A stretch of DNA of 35,796 nt, from contig DUVZ01000142.1 in assembly GCA_012840785.1 (NCBI GenBank), forward strand, positions 1-35,796, in the 5' to 3' direction. Below the pieces are notes generated by a model that saw only the letters and a program-made list of their open reading frames with translations, was not told the origin of the DNA and made no database searches. A program made the translations under genes and the position numbers. Shown piece by piece: positions 4,244 to 33,127 of the stretch (its first letter is position 1; each line of letters starts with the position of its first letter). Source of the DNA: Bacteroidales bacterium (GTDB taxonomy: Bacteria; Bacteroidota; Bacteroidia; Bacteroidales; Dysgonomonadaceae).

Positions 4244-5815
4244 ATGCAAAAAATTAATTCAAAACTCTTATATCCTTTAGCAGGATTAGCCACATTGGCA
4301 TCTTGTGGAGGTGGAGAGAAAGCTGAGCTAGCAAAGCCATTAAACATCGTTTATATCATGACTGACGATCATACACGTCAGATGATGAGTAGCTACGACA
4401 ACAGGCACATCGAAACCCCTAATTTAGATAGAATTGCTGAAGGTGGCGTTCTTTTCGAGAATGCTTTTGTGTGCAACTCCATTTCGGGTCCTAGCCGTGC
4501 AGCATTGTTAACTGGTAAACACAGTCACAAAAACGGAAAGATGGACAATCATACAAAGTTTGATGGAGACCAACAAACTGTTCAACAATTGCTAAAAGGC
4601 GCTGGTTACCAAACAGCTATGATTGGCAAATGGCATTTAGACAGTGAACCAACCAATTTCGACTTCTGGGAAATACTTCCAGGGCAAGGCGATTATTACA
4701 ATCCTGTTTTTATTACACCCGAAGGAAATAAAAACTATGAAGGCTATGTAACAGACATCATTACTGATATGAGCATCGATTGGATGGAGAATGAAAGAGA
4801 CAAGGAAGAGCCTTTCTGTCTGTTTATTCACCACAAAGTTGCACACCGCAATTGGATGAGCGATACTACTCATTTATCACTTTATGAAGATAAAGTGTTT
4901 GAACTTCCAGGTAATTTTTATGACGACTATGAAGGTCGTATTGCCGCTGCAGAACAAGAAATGAGCATTGCCAGTGATCATGATATGGATATCGTAAACG
5001 ACCTTAAAATGATGCGAGAAGGTGTTGAAACTAGACTTTCAGGTGGATATATTCATGGAACTTACGCGCGGATGAATGAGGCACAAAAAGCTGCATGGGA
5101 CAAACATTATAATCCTATTATTGAACAGTTTTATGCAGCTAATCTAAAAGGAAATGAACTAGCAGAATGGAAGTATCAACGCTATATGCGCGACTATGCT
5201 AAAACCATTAAATCACTTGACGAAAATGTTGGTCGTGTACTCGATTACCTTGAACAAAACGATATGTTGGAAAATACAATTATTATTTACACATCAGATC
5301 AAGGTTTCTATATGGGCGAGCATGGTTGGTTCGACAAGCGCTTTATGTATGAAGAGTCGATGAGTACACCACTTGTTATGCACCTACCTTCTCACTTAAA
5401 GAAAAGAGGCAATATTTCGGTTCTAGCTCAAAATATCGACTTTGCACCCACTATGTTGGACATTGCAGGAGCTGATATTCCGGAAGATATTCAAGGTGTT
5501 TCATTGTTACCATTGTTGAAAGACGAAGTTGACCCTAAAGATTGGCGCAAATCATTGTATTACCATTTCTATGAATTCCCATCAGAACATATGGTTAAAC
5601 GTCATTATGGAGTAAGAACAGAGCGTTACAAATTGATTCACTTCTACAATGATATAGATTCATGGGAGCTTTTCGACCTACAAGAAGATATAGAGGAAAT
5701 GCACAATCTATATGGAAAGCCTGGATATGAAGAAATTACAAAAGAGCTAAAAGCAGAATTGAAAAATTTACAAGAGAAATATGACGACCCGATACGTGAA
5801 GTGTATCCGTTGTAA
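4244..5815 (+). CDS. Sulfatase, lipoprotein, serine-type active site
   Basis: Lipobox LATLASC; NIVYIMTDDHTRQMMSSYD; signature SGPSRAALLTGKHSHKNG; GKWHL; TSDQGFYMGEHGWFDKR. Confidence 0.92.
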   Translation: MQKINSKLLYPLAGLATLASCGGGEKAELAKPLNIVYIMTDDHTRQMMSSYDNRHIETPNLDRIAEGGVLFENAFVCNSISGPSRAALLTGKHSHKNGKMDNHTKFDGDQQTVQQLLKGAGYQTAMIGKWHLDSEPTNFDFWEILPGQGDYYNPVFITPEGNKNYEGYVTDIITDMSIDWMENERDKEEPFCLFIHHKVAHRNWMSDTTHLSLYEDKVFELPGNFYDDYEGRIAAAEQEMSIASDHDMDIVNDLKMMREGVETRLSGGYIHGTYARMNEAQKAAWDKHYNPIIEQFYAANLKGNELAEWKYQRYMRDYAKTIKSLDENVGRVLDYLEQNDMLENTIIIYTSDQGFYMGEHGWFDKRFMYEESMSTPLVMHLPSHLKKRGNISVLAQNIDFAPTMLDIAGADIPEDIQGVSLLPLLKDEVDPKDWRKSLYYHFYEFPSEHMVKRHYGVRTERYKLIHFYNDIDSWELFDLQEDIEEMHNLYGKPGYEEITKELKAELKNLQEKYDDPIREVYPL

Positions 5816-5838
5816 TTAGCTCTTAAAACAATATTTTA

Positions 5839-5874
5839 AAAACCGATTCTAAATTATACGAATCGGTTTTTTTC
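5839..5874 (+). terminator. Intrinsic terminator after the sulfatase pair
   Basis: AAAACCGATTC-N10-GAATCGGTTTT followed by a T run. Confidence 0.85.
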
Positions 5875-5911
5875 ATGTTATAGATACCGATAAAGGTATA
5901 AATTATGGGTG

Positions 5912-6802
5912 TTATCTCTTTATTTTTCTCACTCCATATTCATTAAATAGAATACCCCCTACAATAAGTAATAATCCAATAAATGTTGTAAAGTATATCT
6001 GTTCACCTAATACAGAGCGAATAATGAATAGAGAGATAAAGGGAGAGAGATAACACAACTGATTAATAAGAGATGGATTGTCTGTTTTTTTGAGTGCTAA
6101 ACTAAAAAATATAAAAGGGATTGCCATTTCAAACAAACCTACATATATGGCAGACAATAATCCTTTAGATGAATACAACTGTATGTCTATAAAAAATAGT
6201 CCAACAAGTAGAAATAAAGAACCAAAGAAAAAGCTTATAAATAGCGCCAATATATTATCAATGTGCTCACTCTTTTTGTTGAATATCCAAAACGAAGCCC
6301 ACACAAATGCACTCAAAAATGCAAGTATCAACCCTGTTATTGAAAGTTTTACCCCTACAATTGTACTAGAGCCAAGTGAAATAAGCGCCACTCCACCTAG
6401 CGATATTGCCATGCCTAAATACTTTAATAGAGGTATACGTTCTCTTGTAACTAATGCTAATAGCAATGTAAGCACAATAGCCCACGAATAATTGATTGAT
6501 TGAGCAATTTGAGCCGGAAGCAAATCATATGCTTTAAATAGAATTAAGTAATATCCTGCAGGACTGAGCATACCTGTAATAGCAAAAAGTACCCACTCTT
6601 TGCGAGTAATTGATTTTACAAGATACCATTTCTTCTGAATAGTGATTAATAAAGCAAAAAGCATCGATGCTGTAATTGCTGCTACAAGCAAGAGTTCATA
6701 ATAAGAATAATGTCTCAAACCTATTTTAAACGCCGATGCTACAGTAGACCAGCTTGCTACAGCAATAGCAATATAGATTAATGATTTTGATGAATCTTTC
6801 AT
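5912..6802 (-). CDS. DMT superfamily transporter (EamA)
   Basis: About 10 TM segments; two EamA-like halves (AQSINYSWAIVLTLLLALVTRERI... NQLCYLSPFISLFIIRSVLGEQI). Confidence 0.88.
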   Translation of the reverse strand: MKDSSKSLIYIAIAVASWSTVASAFKIGLRHYSYYELLLVAAITASMLFALLITIQKKWYLVKSITRKEWVLFAITGMLSPAGYYLILFKAYDLLPAQIAQSINYSWAIVLTLLLALVTRERIPLLKYLGMAISLGGVALISLGSSTIVGVKLSITGLILAFLSAFVWASFWIFNKKSEHIDNILALFISFFFGSLFLLVGLFFIDIQLYSSKGLLSAIYVGLFEMAIPFIFFSLALKKTDNPSLINQLCYLSPFISLFIIRSVLGEQIYFTTFIGLLLIVGGILFNEYGVRKIKR

Positions 6803-10505: not shown

Positions 10506-10790
10506 ATCTCCATTGCGTATTTGAGTTTCAACTCATGTTTTTCAAATCCACCACAGTAGATTTGAGTTTTATCTCTTGATTGTGCAATCCACCATGGTAG
10601 TTTGAAGTTTTATCTCATGGTTGTTAAAATCCACCACAGTAGATTAGAGTTTCACTCCTTGATTTTGTAATTCACCGCAGTAGATTGAAGTTTCATCCCT
10701 TGATTGACGTATCTACCACGTTAGATTGGAGTTTTGTCTCTTGATTTTGTAATCTACCATGGTAGATTTGATTTCTGACTCTTAAAGTTT
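10506..10790. repeat. Degenerate tandem array, 7 units, about 41-bp period, palindromic core TCYACCNNGGTAGA
   Basis: Core-containing units start at 10506, 10546, 10587, 10629, 10670, 10711 and 10752 (spacings 40, 41, 42, 41, 41, 41). The last core TCTACCATGGTAGA (10753-10766) is a perfect 14-bp palindrome. Confidence 0.9.
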
Positions 10791-19896: not shown

Positions 19897-21780
19897 TTAT
19901 TTTATCTCTAAGCCTAATTCATCTGTAAGCTTTTTTAAAGCTGGATTTGTTTCTGTCATTTCTTGAAATATCTCTTGCGAGGTGAAAGCTTTCTTATTCA
20001 CAATGGTATCAGATATTTCAATTTTCATTTCAATAAAATCGTTTTTCAACTTATCATGAAGCCAATCTAAAATCGACCTCAAATTGCTCTCTATATACTC
20101 TTTGTTTATATCTGTATTTACAGTTATTTCTATTGTAGTATCATCTACCTTTTTTGGAAAGTACAACGACATAGTGTTCATCAACAACCTCTCTTCGGTG
20201 AGGGTTTTTGTGAAACTTTTCCAGGCCTCTATCAATGCTTCTTCGGTAAAAGAGGCTTTTCTTGTCCCTTTTTTGCTGCTTTGGCTATCTTCATCATCGC
20301 TATCTTGTTCCTCTGCAGAAGTGATAGATACTCCATGATTGGATATGGAAAAGGTTTTGGGTTGATGACCAGCAATGCGTGGTTTACGAGCAGGTTCTTT
20401 TTCTTCTTTGGGTGTTGTTTTAGTTTGTGTCTCTTTCTCCTTTGAAACCTGTGGAACATAGTGAGGGTCGCGTTCTGTTAATCGGCTATCTTCTTTTTTC
20501 TCATGTTCAACAGTTTTTTCAACTTCCTCTTTTTCAGGTTTTGGTTTTTCTACTTCCTCTGCTTTTGTTTCCACCTGTTTTGTTGGAGCTGTAGCTTGTG
20601 CTCTTTTTTCGGGGACATGTGTACGAGTTGTTTGCGATGAGTCTATCTGTTTGATAGGTTCTCTTTTTTTGGGTTGCTCCCCTGCCCCTTCTGATAGTTG
20701 ACACATGCGTATAAATGCCAATTCAAGCAATAGGCGTTTGTTTTTGCTAACGCGATAGTTAAGGTCACATTCGTTGGCTATTTCAATTCCTTTGTATAGC
20801 AATTCATACGAGCATAGCTTGGCACTCTCGATGTAGCGCTTCTTTATCTTTGGACCCACTTCAAACAGCATTGCCGAGCGAGGGTCTTTACTTATCATTA
20901 GGTTTCGAAAGTGCGATGCCATGCCAGATATAATATGTTGTCCCTCAAATCCATGTTTAAGAATATCATTAACGATGAGTAGACTGTCCACCACACTGCC
21001 TTGCAGTATAGCATCGGTTAGTTTAAAATAGTACTCATAGTCCAATACGTTCAAGTTTTCTATAACAGCCTGGTAGGTTACATTGCCTCCAGTATAACTT
21101 ACTGTTTGGTCAAAGATTGATAGTGCATCACGCATTCCACCATCTGCCTTTTGAGCAATAATATTTAGAGCCTCCTCCTCTGCCGTTATATTTTCTTGTT
21201 GTGCAACATATTTAAGATACTCTACAATATCGCTTAAACTAATTCTATTAAAATCGTATACCTGGCAGCGTGACAGAATAGTAGGTATAATTTTATGCTT
21301 TTCGGTTGTTGCCAAAATAAAGATGGCATGCTTGGGGGGTTCTTCCAATGTTTTCAGAAAAGAGTTGAAAGCCTGTGTTGATAACATGTGCACCTCATCG
21401 ATGATATACACTTTGTATTTACCAATTTGTGGAGGAATGCGCACTTGGTCTATCAAATCGCGTATATCTTCTACCGAGTTGTTCGATGCAGCGTCCATTT
21501 CATGGATGTTGTACGATCTATTCTCGTTGAATGCAACACAAGACTCGCAAGCATTGCAAGCTTCGTTTTCTGAAGTAAGATTGAAACAATTAATTGTTTT
21601 TGCAAAAATTCGTGCACAGGTTGTCTTGCCCACCCCTCTTGGACCACAAAACAGATAGGCATGTGCCAACTTGTTGTTTGAGATGGCATTTTTCAACGTA
21701 GTTGTTAGTGCATTCTGACCAATAACTGATTTAAAAGTAGCTGGGCGGTATTTCCGTGCCGAAACAATATAATTGTCCAT
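19897..21780 (-). CDS. dnaX: DNA polymerase III subunit gamma/tau
   Basis: ARKYRPATFKSVIGQ; CGPRGVGKTTCARIFAKTINC; VYIIDEVHMLSTQAFNSFLKTLEEPP. Confidence 0.97.
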   Translation of the reverse strand: MDNYIVSARKYRPATFKSVIGQNALTTTLKNAISNNKLAHAYLFCGPRGVGKTTCARIFAKTINCFNLTSENEACNACESCVAFNENRSYNIHEMDAASNNSVEDIRDLIDQVRIPPQIGKYKVYIIDEVHMLSTQAFNSFLKTLEEPPKHAIFILATTEKHKIIPTILSRCQVYDFNRISLSDIVEYLKYVAQQENITAEEEALNIIAQKADGGMRDALSIFDQTVSYTGGNVTYQAVIENLNVLDYEYYFKLTDAILQGSVVDSLLIVNDILKHGFEGQHIISGMASHFRNLMISKDPRSAMLFEVGPKIKKRYIESAKLCSYELLYKGIEIANECDLNYRVSKNKRLLLELAFIRMCQLSEGAGEQPKKREPIKQIDSSQTTRTHVPEKRAQATAPTKQVETKAEEVEKPKPEKEEVEKTVEHEKKEDSRLTERDPHYVPQVSKEKETQTKTTPKEEKEPARKPRIAGHQPKTFSISNHGVSITSAEEQDSDDEDSQSSKKGTRKASFTEEALIEAWKSFTKTLTEERLLMNTMSLYFPKKVDDTTIEITVNTDINKEYIESNLRSILDWLHDKLKNDFIEMKIEISDTIVNKKAFTSQEIFQEMTETNPALKKLTDELGLEIK

Positions 21781-21987: not shown

Positions 21988-22060
21988 TTTTGCTCAGTTT
22001 TCCCTTAAAAGTGCCCTTTTTGACCCTTTTTTTGCTGTTTTCGCTCTTTTTTCAACATTT
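21988..22060. other. Helically phased A/T-tracts (predicted intrinsically curved DNA)
   Basis: T/A-tracts centred near 21989.5, 21999.5, 22008.5, 22019, 22030, 22039.5, 22049.5 and 22059, mean spacing about 9.9 bp. Confidence 0.7.
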
Positions 22061-22731
22061 CCACCGCGGTGGATGGAAACTTTGCACTATATCTCCAATT
22101 TTCACCGTGGTGAATTTGAAAAATGCACAATAAATTGAATTTTCTACGTGGTGGATGAGAAATTCGCACTTTATTCTGAATTTTCTACAAGGTGGATAGG
22201 AATAACGCATTTTGTTTTCAATTTCCACCGTGGTGAATTTAAAAAATGCACTTTATTTTCAATTTTCACTTCGGTGAATATGAAAAACAGACAATTATTT
22301 AAATTTTCTACGAGGTGAATTTGATTTTTACACAAAAACTTCAATATTCACCGCGGTAAATTTGAAAAACACAAAAAACACTCAATTTCCACCGCGGTGT
22401 TTTGTCCGTTTATGGTGCTAAGTTTGTAAACACCGCGGTGGATTTTGTAATTCAAGTGCGAAGTTTGTAAACACCACGGTGGAAATTGCAGTTGAAGCGC
22501 AAAGTTTGTAAACACCACGGTGGATTTTGCAGTTGCAGTGCAAAGTTTAAAAACACTTTGGTGAATGTTTCAATTGCAGTGCAAATTTTCTAGACACGAT
22601 GGTGGATGCTCCATTTATGGTGCAAACTTTGTGATTGCCTTGGTGGATGATGCAATTGCAGTGTGAAATTACTAATCATCACGGTGGATGCTCAAATTAC
22701 AGAGCAAAGTAAGTAAACACCAAAGTGGATT
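22061..22731. repeat. 17-site palindromic array with exact 41-bp period and mirror symmetry about the 9th site
   Basis: GGTG (or 1-nt variant) of each core starts at 22068, 22109, 22150, 22191, 22232, 22273, 22314, 22355, 22396, 22437, 22478, 22519, 22560, 22601, 22642, 22683 and 22724. Best cores include CCACCGCGGTGG (22061-22072) and CACCGCGGTGG (22431-22441). Confidence 0.95.
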
Positions 22732-22794
22732 ATCGAAAAGCTACCTACTAATCTGTTGTTTAACTATTCACGATAAAAGATTCATGTTAAATAC

Positions 22795-22826: not shown

Positions 22827-22938
22827 TTTTGTCTTAACAATATTATTTTTTCTTACAAAAAGTTACGTCAAAATAGCAGCTCTATCGGCATAGATAATGG
22901 GTTATTTAATACACGCTCACTTTTTAGCAATAGTAATC

Positions 22939-23925
22939 ATGAATAAATCGTATATCACTCATTTGCTTATAATGTTTGTGCTATTAATGTTCGCAAGTTG
23001 CGGATTGCACAGATCTACTGCTGAATTTGATCAATCGTTTAGTGAAATAGAGAATGCAATTTTGGTGCAGCATCACAATCCAAATTTCCCTTTACCCAAT
23101 ATCCCCGAATCAATTGTGGATGGGCAAGAGAGGGCAATCTACTTATCTAAACACTATTGGGATGAATTTCCATTCAACGATGTTTCGCTTATAGATAAAC
23201 CGCAGGTTACCGAGCAAGCCTTTGTTGACTATATACACGTTTTGAAGTTTATTCCATTTAAATATGCTAGTAGATCGATAAAATATTTATTTGTTCAGGC
23301 GCAGAGCAATCCTAATATGTATGGGCACTTTGCCTCTCTGTTTGAGAAATATTATTACATTGCCGACTCTCCCTTTTGCAACGAAGAGTTGTATATTCCT
23401 GTATTAGAGACTATTCTTAAATCGGATATGTTGACTAAAGAGGATTTCGAGAAGTATGATTATCAAAAAGAGATGATTCATAAGAACAGGGTTGGCTCCA
23501 AAGCTACCGATTTTGTATACACCCTTGAGAATGGAGATTGGAAAAGAATGCATGCTCTCAAGAGCAACTATTTGATACTCTTTTTCTCCACTCCCGAATG
23601 TAGCAAATGTGTGTCTGTAGCTGATGAGATACAAAATTCAGATGTTTTAGGAAAGGTTTGTTCTCTTAATAGTTTTAGCAGAAGCATGCTTTCGGTATTG
23701 CATGTTTATCCAGGATCTAATGTTCCTCTATGGCAAGAGTCACTTGCATCTATGCCTAAAAAGAATTGGATACATGCATACGATAGAGCTAGAGTATTAA
23801 CCAATAAACGGGTTTATAATCTTAAAAAGCTTCCTACAATATATCTGCTAGACGAAAACAAACGAATTATTCTTAAAGAGACCTCTTTAGAGGAAATAGA
23901 GAGTTACTTCTTGTCGAAAGAGTAG
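22939..23925 (+). CDS. DUF5106-like lipoprotein with C-terminal thioredoxin-like domain
   Basis: Lipobox MFASC; KATDFVYTLENGDWKRMHALKSNYLILFFSTPECSKCVSVADEI. Start at the internal ATG MNKSYITHLL. Confidence 0.72.
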   Translation: MNKSYITHLLIMFVLLMFASCGLHRSTAEFDQSFSEIENAILVQHHNPNFPLPNIPESIVDGQERAIYLSKHYWDEFPFNDVSLIDKPQVTEQAFVDYIHVLKFIPFKYASRSIKYLFVQAQSNPNMYGHFASLFEKYYYIADSPFCNEELYIPVLETILKSDMLTKEDFEKYDYQKEMIHKNRVGSKATDFVYTLENGDWKRMHALKSNYLILFFSTPECSKCVSVADEIQNSDVLGKVCSLNSFSRSMLSVLHVYPGSNVPLWQESLASMPKKNWIHAYDRARVLTNKRVYNLKKLPTIYLLDENKRIILKETSLEEIESYFLSKE

Positions 23926-30623: not shown

Positions 30624-31319
30624 TTAAAGCACTTTTCTCAACTCATCTCTCTTTAATACTGTTATCTGTCGTTTGTCGATAGCTATCACCCCTTGTTCAA
30701 CCAATTCGCTTATCGAACGGGCTAGAGAAGGACGCTGCACACCAAAATACTCTGCCAATTGTGTGCGGTTTCTTTTAAGTATAAAGCTGTTTTTCTCTTC
30801 TGTGGTATGTTCCAAAATAAAGAGCGAAAGCTTTCCTTTAATGCTTTTGATGGATATCATTTGTAGTTTTTGTGACAAAAACACGCTCATATTAGAATTC
30901 AATCTCAGAAAATTGCTCAACAAGGTTTCGTTTCTCATCATTTCGTTCAACCATACATCCTTTGGAATCAACAAGAAATGACACTCCTCAATGGTAATTA
31001 CATCTACAGGGAAACGATTGTTTTGTGCAAACATAAATGCAGGAGCTAGTGGACGTACCGCATCAATAAACTCTATTTCTAGCAGATTACCTTCTTGCGT
31101 AATCATCTCGGTACGCACAGTTCCTTTCACTAATAGGTATAGGTGTTTTATCTCATCGCCTTGTCTAGCAACAGTTTCGCCTTTCCCAACTATTTTTCTA
31201 TTGCTCACCAATCGGTTAAGAAAAGCTTTCTGTTCGGCTCTGTCTATTTCTGTAAATAGGGGGCATGTGGAGATATCGTAATCAAGCATACTCAAAATGT
31301 TGTTTGTTTGGTTTATCAA
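30624..31319 (-). CDS. Crp/Fnr family transcriptional regulator (HcpR-like by context)
   Basis: cNMP-binding fold (VARQGDEIKHLYLLVKGTVRTEMI) and C-terminal HTH (RTQLAEYFGVQRPSLARSISELVEQGVI); divergent from hcp. Confidence 0.9.
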   Translation of the reverse strand: MINQTNNILSMLDYDISTCPLFTEIDRAEQKAFLNRLVSNRKIVGKGETVARQGDEIKHLYLLVKGTVRTEMITQEGNLLEIEFIDAVRPLAPAFMFAQNNRFPVDVITIEECHFLLIPKDVWLNEMMRNETLLSNFLRLNSNMSVFLSQKLQMISIKSIKGKLSLFILEHTTEEKNSFILKRNRTQLAEYFGVQRPSLARSISELVEQGVIAIDKRQITVLKRDELRKVL

Positions 31320-31368
31320 AGATAAGGAAGTTACCTACTTTAACATATAAATAACTGTTAATTATCAG

Positions 31369-31416
31369 ATGTGTAACTTGTGTTACACATTTAGGTAATT
31401 GTATTTGATACATTTG
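31369..31416 (+). promoter_or_regulatory. hcp promoter: 9-bp-arm palindrome ATGTGTAAC-TTGT-GTTACACAT plus -7 TACATTTG
   Basis: Palindrome 31369-31390; TACATTTG 31409-31416; arm symmetry checked base by base. Confidence 0.8.
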
Positions 31417-31468
31417 CATCAGAATAAAGGATTAGATAGTTATTAAACTCAATAAAAAATATAACACT

Positions 31469-33127
31469 ATGAGTAAAATGTTTTGTTACCAATGTCAAGA
31501 AACCGCTAAAAATGAAGGTTGCACCGTGAGAGGCGTGTGCGGAAAAACAGCAGATGTAGCCAATATGCAAGATTTGTTGATGTATTTGTGTAAAGGAATC
31601 TCGCACTACACTGTGCGTTTAAGAGCAAATGGGGTAGAGGTGTCTGAAATAAATAAATTTATTGTAGATAGTCTGTTTATGACTATTACCAACGCCAACT
31701 TCGATTTAAACAGATTTAAAGTTCGCATGTACATTGCTTATGAAATGCGCAATGCTGCAAAGAAAAAACTGCAAGAGTTAGGTGTAAACATCGACGATAT
31801 CACATACTCTGGTGTACATTGGATGGGTGAAACTGAAGAAGAGATGTTTGATAAAGCTCTTGAAGTGGGTGTGCTTGCTACTGAAAACGAAGATATTCGT
31901 TCGCTACGTGAGTTAACAATCTACGGATTGAAAGGAATGGCAGCTTATGCTGAGCATGCTTTTAATTTAGGCTTCGAAGACAATGAAATATATGCTTTTA
32001 TCCAACAAGCATTGGTGGATACAACAAACGACAACTTAAATGCCGATGAATTAACTCAGCTAGTATTAAAAACTGGTGAGGTTGGTGTAAAAGCAATGGC
32101 TTTGCTTGACAGTGCTAATACTGGTAGTTATGGTCATCCCGTAATATCGAAAGTTAGTTTAGGTGTTCGCAACAATCCTGGCATCCTTATCAGTGGGCAC
32201 GACATGAAAGATATGGAAGAGCTGCTAAAGCAAACCGAAGGAACAGGTGTAGATGTATATACACACAGCGAAATGTTGCCTGCTAACTATTATCCTGCAT
32301 TCAAAAAATACGACCACTTTGTGGGTAACTACGGTGGTTCTTGGTGGCAGCAAACCAAAGATTTTGAAACATTTAATGGCGTAGTTTTATTTACTACTAA
32401 CTGTATAGTTCCACCTTTGAGAAGCTCAACTTATGCCGATAGAGTTTATACAACAGGTGCATCTGGATTTGAAGGTTTCCCACATATAGCAGATAGAGAA
32501 GATGGCAAGACAAAAGACTTCTCGGCATTGATAGAGCATGCAAAAAAATGTGAGGCTCCTATAGAGATCGAAACTGGAGAAATAGTTGGTGGTTTTGCAC
32601 ACAACCAAGTGGCAGCTCTTTCTAGTCAAGTAGTTGAAGCTGTGAAAACAGGAGCTATCCGCAAGTTCTTTGTGATGGCCGGATGTGATGGACGCATGAA
32701 AGGTAGAAGCTACTATACAGAGTTTGCTCAAAAACTACCACAAGATACAGTAATTCTTACTGCAGGCTGTGCAAAATACAGGTACAACAAATTGGAACTT
32801 GGCGATATCAATGGTATACCTCGTGTTTTAGACGCTGGGCAGTGCAACGATAGTTATTCATTGGTAAAAATAGCATTAAGCTTGCAAGAAGCCTTTGGTT
32901 TAGATAGTTTAAACGATTTGCCAATTGCCTACAACATTGCATGGTATGAGCAGAAAGCTGTGATTGTATTATTAGCATTGCTATCACTAGGAGTAAAGAA
33001 TATTCATTTAGGACCCACATTGCCTGCTTTCTTATCTCCAAACATCGTGAATGTTTTAGTAAACAATTTTGCTCTTTCAGGCATTACATCAGTAGATGAA
33101 GACATGAAGGTTCTACTAGGTGCTTAA
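31469..33127 (+). CDS. hcp: Hydroxylamine reductase / hybrid cluster protein
   Basis: [73 protein letters not shown]. Confidence 0.97.

Follow-up and report, generated by a model that had tools for sequence, protein, structure and literature searches.

We have found an array of 17 short dyads at an exact 41 bp period in the stretch of DNA analyzed here (35,796 nt, called the window below). With a probability of about one half, this array and similar ones elsewhere in the genome are phased binding arrays for a putative homodimeric DNA-binding protein, carried in non-autonomous repeats. The chromosome has an estimated 40 or so arrays of a 12–14 bp dyad (YYACCNNGGTRR) locked at a 41 bp pitch, and this locus is one of them.

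The 41 bp array and its surroundings

The array is found between two genes, both transcribed away from it. The features of this region, together with a second array in the window, are the following:

10535–10770, + strand: second array, six cores, from TCCACCACAGTAGA to TCTACCATGGTAGA, with spacings of 41, 42, 41, 41 and 41 bp
19897–21780, − strand: dnaX-type gene for the DNA polymerase III gamma/tau subunit (Pfam DNA_pol3_delta2, 1e-46; DNAX_ATPase_lid, 1e-16)
21998–22059, + strand: conserved T/C-rich leader adjoining the array, consensus TTTTCCCTCAAAAACACCCTTTTTGACCCCTTTTTTGCTGTTTTCGCTCTTTTTTCAACATTT
22060–22401, + strand: left half of the array, nine dyad cores spaced at 41 bp, + units
22398–22433, no strand: switch point between the two orientations, GGTGTTTTGTCCGTTTATGGTGCTAAGTTTGTAAAC
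22429–22733, − strand: right half of the array, eight cores spaced at 41 bp (starts 22429 to 22716), units reverse-complemented
22897–23925, + strand: gene for a DUF5106 and thioredoxin-like protein (Pfam DUF5106, 8.5e-43)

Cores were counted when they matched at least 9 of the 12 consensus positions, and simple consensus rules underlie all dyad counts given here. All 17 cores between 22060 and 22733 fall on a single exact 41 bp grid, compared with a maximum of 2 per grid in 500 dinucleotide shuffles. An earlier reading made from the sequence only had placed GGTG, or a variant of it, at 22068 + 41n (n = 0 to 16) without any indel, and a check of these positions bears this out. It had also asked for an autocorrelation: for lags of 41, 82 and 123 we obtain 0.66, 0.63 and 0.60, compared with a mean of 0.27. 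It had pointed to strong dyads as well: the 17 cores are real, but their quality varies and several of them are imperfect, especially cores 13–17, in the right half, and the cores at the right end are weak.

The array is bidirectional. Its left half consists of nine + units, whose cores start at 22060, 22101, 22142, 22183, 22224, 22265, 22306, 22347 and 22388, and its right half of eight reverse-complemented units. Spacers have a separate consensus in each half, the right one being the reverse complement of the left one. The idea that selection holds the spacing and the dyad rather than the sequence is thus supported as to spacing, but too strong otherwise, since spacers with such a clear consensus are not free.

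The second array lies between the gene for an HHH_3-domain protein and a convergent DUF4332 gene, and its cores are at 10547, 10588, 10630, 10671, 10712 and 10753. Kinship counts and domains found in neighboring genes (DUF5106, fimbrillin-like and BACON) suggest that the genome belongs to the order Bacteroidales. A Pfam scan of 27 ORFs of the window agrees with the reported absence of parA/parB, and no Cas domain was found among the ORFs scanned. Elsewhere in the window (30627–33124), a Crp-family regulator gene is divergent from a gene for a hybrid-cluster (Prismane) protein, an HcpR-like arrangement.

Whole-length copies

Colinear copies of the array, with 77–79% identity over about 740 bp, are present in the same genome on two more contigs (C76 and C108). 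The leader is about 80–86% identical across the paralogs in C41, C76 and C108, and pieces of it can be recognized in C192 and C176. The switch point is the best-conserved stretch between paralogs: it is identical in C76 and has three differences in C108. Among the three paralogs of this class (type I), identity is 56% in the central NN of the dyad, 81% in the half-sites and 77% in the spacers, so that the center of the dyad is the most variable part of the array, while half-sites are modestly above spacers. No inverted ends can be recognized on type I arrays.

The three pairwise comparisons over the 682 bp array show 159, 149 and 136 substitutions and no indels. In the flanks of the type II repeats described below, in the same genome, there are 0.05–0.13 indels per substitution; at this rate, the roughly 220 independent substitutions should have been accompanied by about 12 or more indels. 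The length of the array is therefore under constraint, or else indels are erased by conversion. The source genome is a fragmented MAG with 5.8% contamination, in which contig ends may cut arrays and repeat assembly may be imperfect, but assembly errors are made less likely in this case by the identical spacing of three copies which have diverged.

Dispersed dyads in the same genome

Pattern searches covered the assembly from which the window comes, 2.33 Mb in 362 contigs. The perfect dyad CTACCNNGGTAG is found 61 times, and the reversed control pattern is not found at all. Dyad pairs 41 bp apart occur on many contigs. The stretches examined come from part of the dyad-bearing contigs and have dyad clusters at about 36 loci, from which we estimate about 40 for the genome. 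The genome-wide search suggested by the sequence-only reading has found both the dyad and its 41 bp spacing at many dispersed loci. Spacings between neighboring dyads are exact multiples of 41 in 66 of 98 cases, and 20 more are off by one base (86/98).

These clusters are located in gaps between long ORFs. Gaps may be convergent, tandem or divergent, and these classes are not significantly different from background (divergent 2/22, P = 0.14). As neighboring genes are also diverse, a promoter-type regulon was discarded. A viral origin was discarded as well: the triple-dyad pattern has no exact match in viral contigs. Intrinsic curvature by phased A-tracts was another candidate that we have rejected, as the 41/4 harmonic of AA/TT is the top one in only 3 of 38 arrays.

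Most of the other loci are homologous copies of an element of about 570 bp, which we call type II; about 28 copies have been aligned. They contain one dyad, followed 206–288 bp later by one to three more dyads, and the outer dyads are about 287 bp apart (7 × 41). Imperfect 13 bp inverted repeats (TTTTyGTTTCTwA) form the ends in many of the 16 copies examined. In this respect type II alone, and not the type I array, has what is expected of a MITE: dispersed non-coding copies with inverted ends. The first dyad, TCTACCNNGGTAGA, is invariant in 18/18 copies except for the central NN, with about 75% identity elsewhere; copies which have diverged by 25–30% still keep dyad and pitch. Their neighbors are unrelated and diverse, many of them housekeeping genes. 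No target-site duplication has been recognized in these old and diverged copies, nor have we seen an autonomous partner with a transposase ORF between type II ends. Several type II elements (L085, L078, L087 and L080) start or stop directly at the T-run of a hairpin similar to an intrinsic terminator.

Related genomes

The congener G003 contains many homologous type II elements (57 matches). In the copies sampled, the distances between the first core and the following dyads are 205 and 246 bp, which correspond to 5 and 6 × 41, one 41 bp unit fewer than in the genome of the window (G000). Spacing that varied freely in related loci had been named in advance as evidence against the array; exact multiples are kept instead. 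On both arms the 3' half-sites have changed, TCTAC/GTAGA giving way to TCCAC/GTGGA, although some copies are mixed, and the first dyad has lost its symmetry on the right arm in this species.

None of 14 sampled G003 copies was found at a site common to the G000 loci, as judged from short flanks. One G003 element (L300) is located just downstream of the orthologue of window gene 5915–6802. In the window, the element is absent at this gene, and the corresponding 97 bp gap (5815–5912) is probably an empty site.

Another congener, G001, does not have the homologous family, with only two short matches. It has a private dispersed family (L284–L295) with a different dyad, ATTGT-N6-ACAAT, at 42–43 bp (23 matches), unrelated to the G000 dyad and not found in G000, G002 or G003. 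Its outer dyads are about 295 bp apart (7 × 42), compared with 287 bp (7 × 41) in G000. Two G001 copies examined have a common flank containing GCAGGAGCTCCCTC.

Among the samples searched, the element family is restricted to G000 and G003. Beyond the genus, no copy was found in a sample of 60 genomes of the family, except for one 38 bp match. The ACCNNGGT triple array was not found in 100 relatives, save for one match of another kind in G076.

Other arrays with similar periods

When GTDB contigs were scanned for a set of three dyads spaced at 41 bp, 59 stretches were obtained. Many of these are chance matches, including ordinary 41 bp tandem repeats of GC-rich genomes, and have been excluded as evidence. 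Others, in MAGs of Parabacteroides, Tannerellaceae, Dysgonamonadaceae and Kiritimatiellae, are families of a clearly palindromic type, and several of these families occupy multiple loci.

A sample chosen independently of the motif (1.125 Mb of stretches from several genomes) contains 15 non-coding tandem arrays with periods of 28–60 bp, and all 15 have a period of 40–42 bp; the remaining non-coding periods are 16, 18 and 21–23 bp. Compared with a uniform spectrum, this gives a nominal P of 2e-14, which is overstated: a single genome (G102) accounts for nine of the 15 arrays, those found in the same genome may be related to each other, and genomes G101–G108 were reached via motif hits, with no large outgroup control. 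Loci outside Bacteroidota (358 kb) contain three non-coding arrays away from the motif, with periods of 19, 21 and 21 bp.

In 400 kb of the Parabacteroides MAG G102 (L184–L203), we find about ten distinct 41/42 bp arrays, many of them palindromic, and a dozen 22–23 bp arrays; each array has its own unit. In L203 (6930–7338) the second palindrome has been swapped, while the first palindrome and the pitch are retained. In two 23 bp arrays (L187, 11742–11930, and L188, 10408–10561), changes in one arm of the stem of an 18 bp palindrome seem to be compensated in the other (CCACACG/CGTGTGG, CCACTCG/CGAGTGG). These look like cases of selection for a hairpin, unlike the 41 bp arrays of the window.

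Adjacent 41 bp units in Dysgonamonadaceae (L121, 338–560, and L129, 4960–5300) have cores which differ and yet are palindromic: GCAACCGCGGTTGC, TTTCGTACCGGTACGAAA and TTGATCGCGATCAA. The Kiritimatiellae MAG RGIG3282 has seven TCTACCATGGTCGA arrays (L096, L108, L112, L120, L123, L125 and L138), with a second palindrome, for example CCATTGCATTGCAATGG, half a period away; those inspected are bounded by ends similar to TTTTTGGTAGATA and TATCTACCAAAAA.

It is conceivable, although we would put it at clearly less than even odds, that these arrays form a general class, present in Bacteroidales and in one or more genomes of Kiritimatiellae. What is conserved in this class would be the pitch, equivalent to about two or four turns of the helix, whereas the palindrome would turn over between species. 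Such a pattern is expected if the arrays of each species co-evolve with a fast-evolving DNA-binding protein. We have found no report of other 41 bp palindrome arrays from Bacteroidales in the open-access literature.

Comparison with known repeats

Judging by their description, the closest precedent would be MITE464/PgRS of Porphyromonas gingivalis, together with BrickBuilt. The former contains 41 nt tandem repeats and the latter 23 nt repeats; PgRS and BrickBuilt are dispersed, intergenic and MITE-like, with about 10–20 copies per genome and sequences private to a species group (PMC4596501). We find the same 41 bp pitch at about 40 intergenic loci, with a type II body of about 570 bp, and both of these period classes (22–23 and 41–42) dominate our sample. 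On the other hand, the IS5-like ends of MITE464/PgRS (GAGACTGTTGCA/TGCAACGGTCTC; GAGACYRTTGCA type) differ from those found here: type II ends are TTTTyGTTTCTwA and type I has no recognizable ends, and IS5-family terminal repeats were found in neither. The description of PgRS considered here speaks of direct repeats and mentions no dyad (PMC4596501). The BrickBuilt repeat was found in none of 393 genomes searched.

REP/BIME sequences (GTAG- and CGTC-tagged) are also dispersed intergenic palindromes, placed beside unrelated genes and forming species-restricted families (PMC3733652). Our arrays share these features, but REPs are 20–40 bp hairpins with variable spacing. A link with RAYT proteins was discarded: Y1_Tnp has one gene in the genome of the window, it is present in 18 of 21 relatives, and up to 9 copies are found in genomes where ACCNNGGT arrays were not found, so its distribution is not specific to array-bearing genomes. 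CRISPR arrays also have a partly palindromic repeat and regular spacing, but the constant part here is a 12–14 bp dyad, the intervals have a consensus instead of being unique spacers, and no Cas domain was found in the window ORFs scanned.

Possible explanations

We consider it most probable that each dyad would be bound by a sequence-specific homodimeric protein. The length of 41 bp is about four helical turns. All sites would therefore be on one face of the helix, and dimers may assemble cooperatively into a nucleoprotein strip. The features which point to such a protein are dyads conserved in sequence, with a free center, a fixed pitch and no covariation. The sequence-only reading had also proposed an array for a dimeric protein, and this part of it is supported: conserved, non-covarying dyads fit a predicted dimeric binder better than RNA hairpins. 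The segregation and silencing roles that it had offered find no support in our results. The arrays would have spread along with a non-autonomous repeat, and they may have been retained because the bound complex has a function, either in the architecture or anchoring of the host chromosome or to the benefit of the element that carries it. We slightly favor the host, since old and diverged copies retain dyad and spacing. The asymmetry of the first dyad in G003, the small difference between half-sites (81%) and spacers (77%) and the lack of A-tract phasing at the helical pitch count against this explanation. A single binder would also fail to account for the variety of palindromes which each of the other genomes with such periods contains.

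A serious rival, which we consider possible with much less confidence, is that the repeats are non-autonomous MITEs, and that a transposase or recombinase provided in trans docks at their dyads. The array would then serve mobility only and not the host. Mobility of type II is likely. In favor of this rival, the copies share a conserved body and imperfect inverted ends, they are found beside unrelated genes, none of the 14 sampled G003 copies was found at a site shared with G000, one G003 copy is placed beside the orthologue of a gene which lacks it in the window, and the family is confined to these two genomes in the samples searched. The 41 nt repeats of MITE464/PgRS are a further parallel. 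A role of the dyads in transposition agrees less well with the persistence of dyad and pitch in copies 25–30% diverged, with type I arrays devoid of type II-like ends, and with our failure to recognize a target-site duplication or a transposase-bearing partner. A neutral minisatellite, in which slippage between short palindromes gave units with one hairpin (21–23 bp) or two (41–43 bp), is doubtful. These periods do correspond to a palindrome of about 20 nt taken once or twice, some arrays elsewhere (L129, L133 and L286) are nearly identical direct repeats, and species differ in unit number by one 41 bp step. Such an origin explains the expansion of units, but it fails to explain why indels are missing from three paralogs with 17 diverged units; the exact 205/246 bp phase across a dyad-less spacer in two species and the invariant dyad of diverged copies are also against it.

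Expressed hairpins had been suggested as an alternative to a protein. A transcribed structured RNA, whether it formed many hairpins in a row or a single long one by pairing of the two inverted halves, appears very unlikely. Dinucleotide shuffles fold less well than either strand (z = −7.6 and −12.3), as expected for any inverted array rich in palindromes. However, pairing across the dyad is that expected from column shuffling, the RNAalifold covariation term is 0.28, with a double change in 5 of 42 pairs, and this lack of compensatory covariation makes RNA helices improbable. In addition, no Rfam match was found at the array, a 2 nt dyad center would be poor as an RNA loop, and copies occur in gaps of all three orientations. 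The F plasmid centromere sopC, bound by SopB, has about 12 copies of a direct repeat which is about 43 bp long and contains an inverted-repeat core, and the sequence-only reading had seen a similar logic in this array. The geometry is indeed similar, with a comparable period and sites on one face, but sopC is a single plasmid site beside sopAB, whereas we find about 40 dispersed loci with chromosomal neighbors, many of them MITE-like and beside unrelated genes, and no parA/parB-type domain in the window ORFs scanned. A single centromere-like site does not agree with these results, and a plasmid-type partition centromere is hardly credible.

Significance

If the wider pattern is true, these arrays would be a sizeable and mostly unremarked share of the intergenic DNA of Bacteroidales, in which geometry is fixed while sequence changes, and the 41 nt and 23 nt repeats of P. 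gingivalis would fall within it. A direct search for the putative binding protein would become possible. Natural variants, with periods of 41, 42 and 43 bp and different dyads in sister species, would then provide a test of the co-evolution of spacing and specificity.
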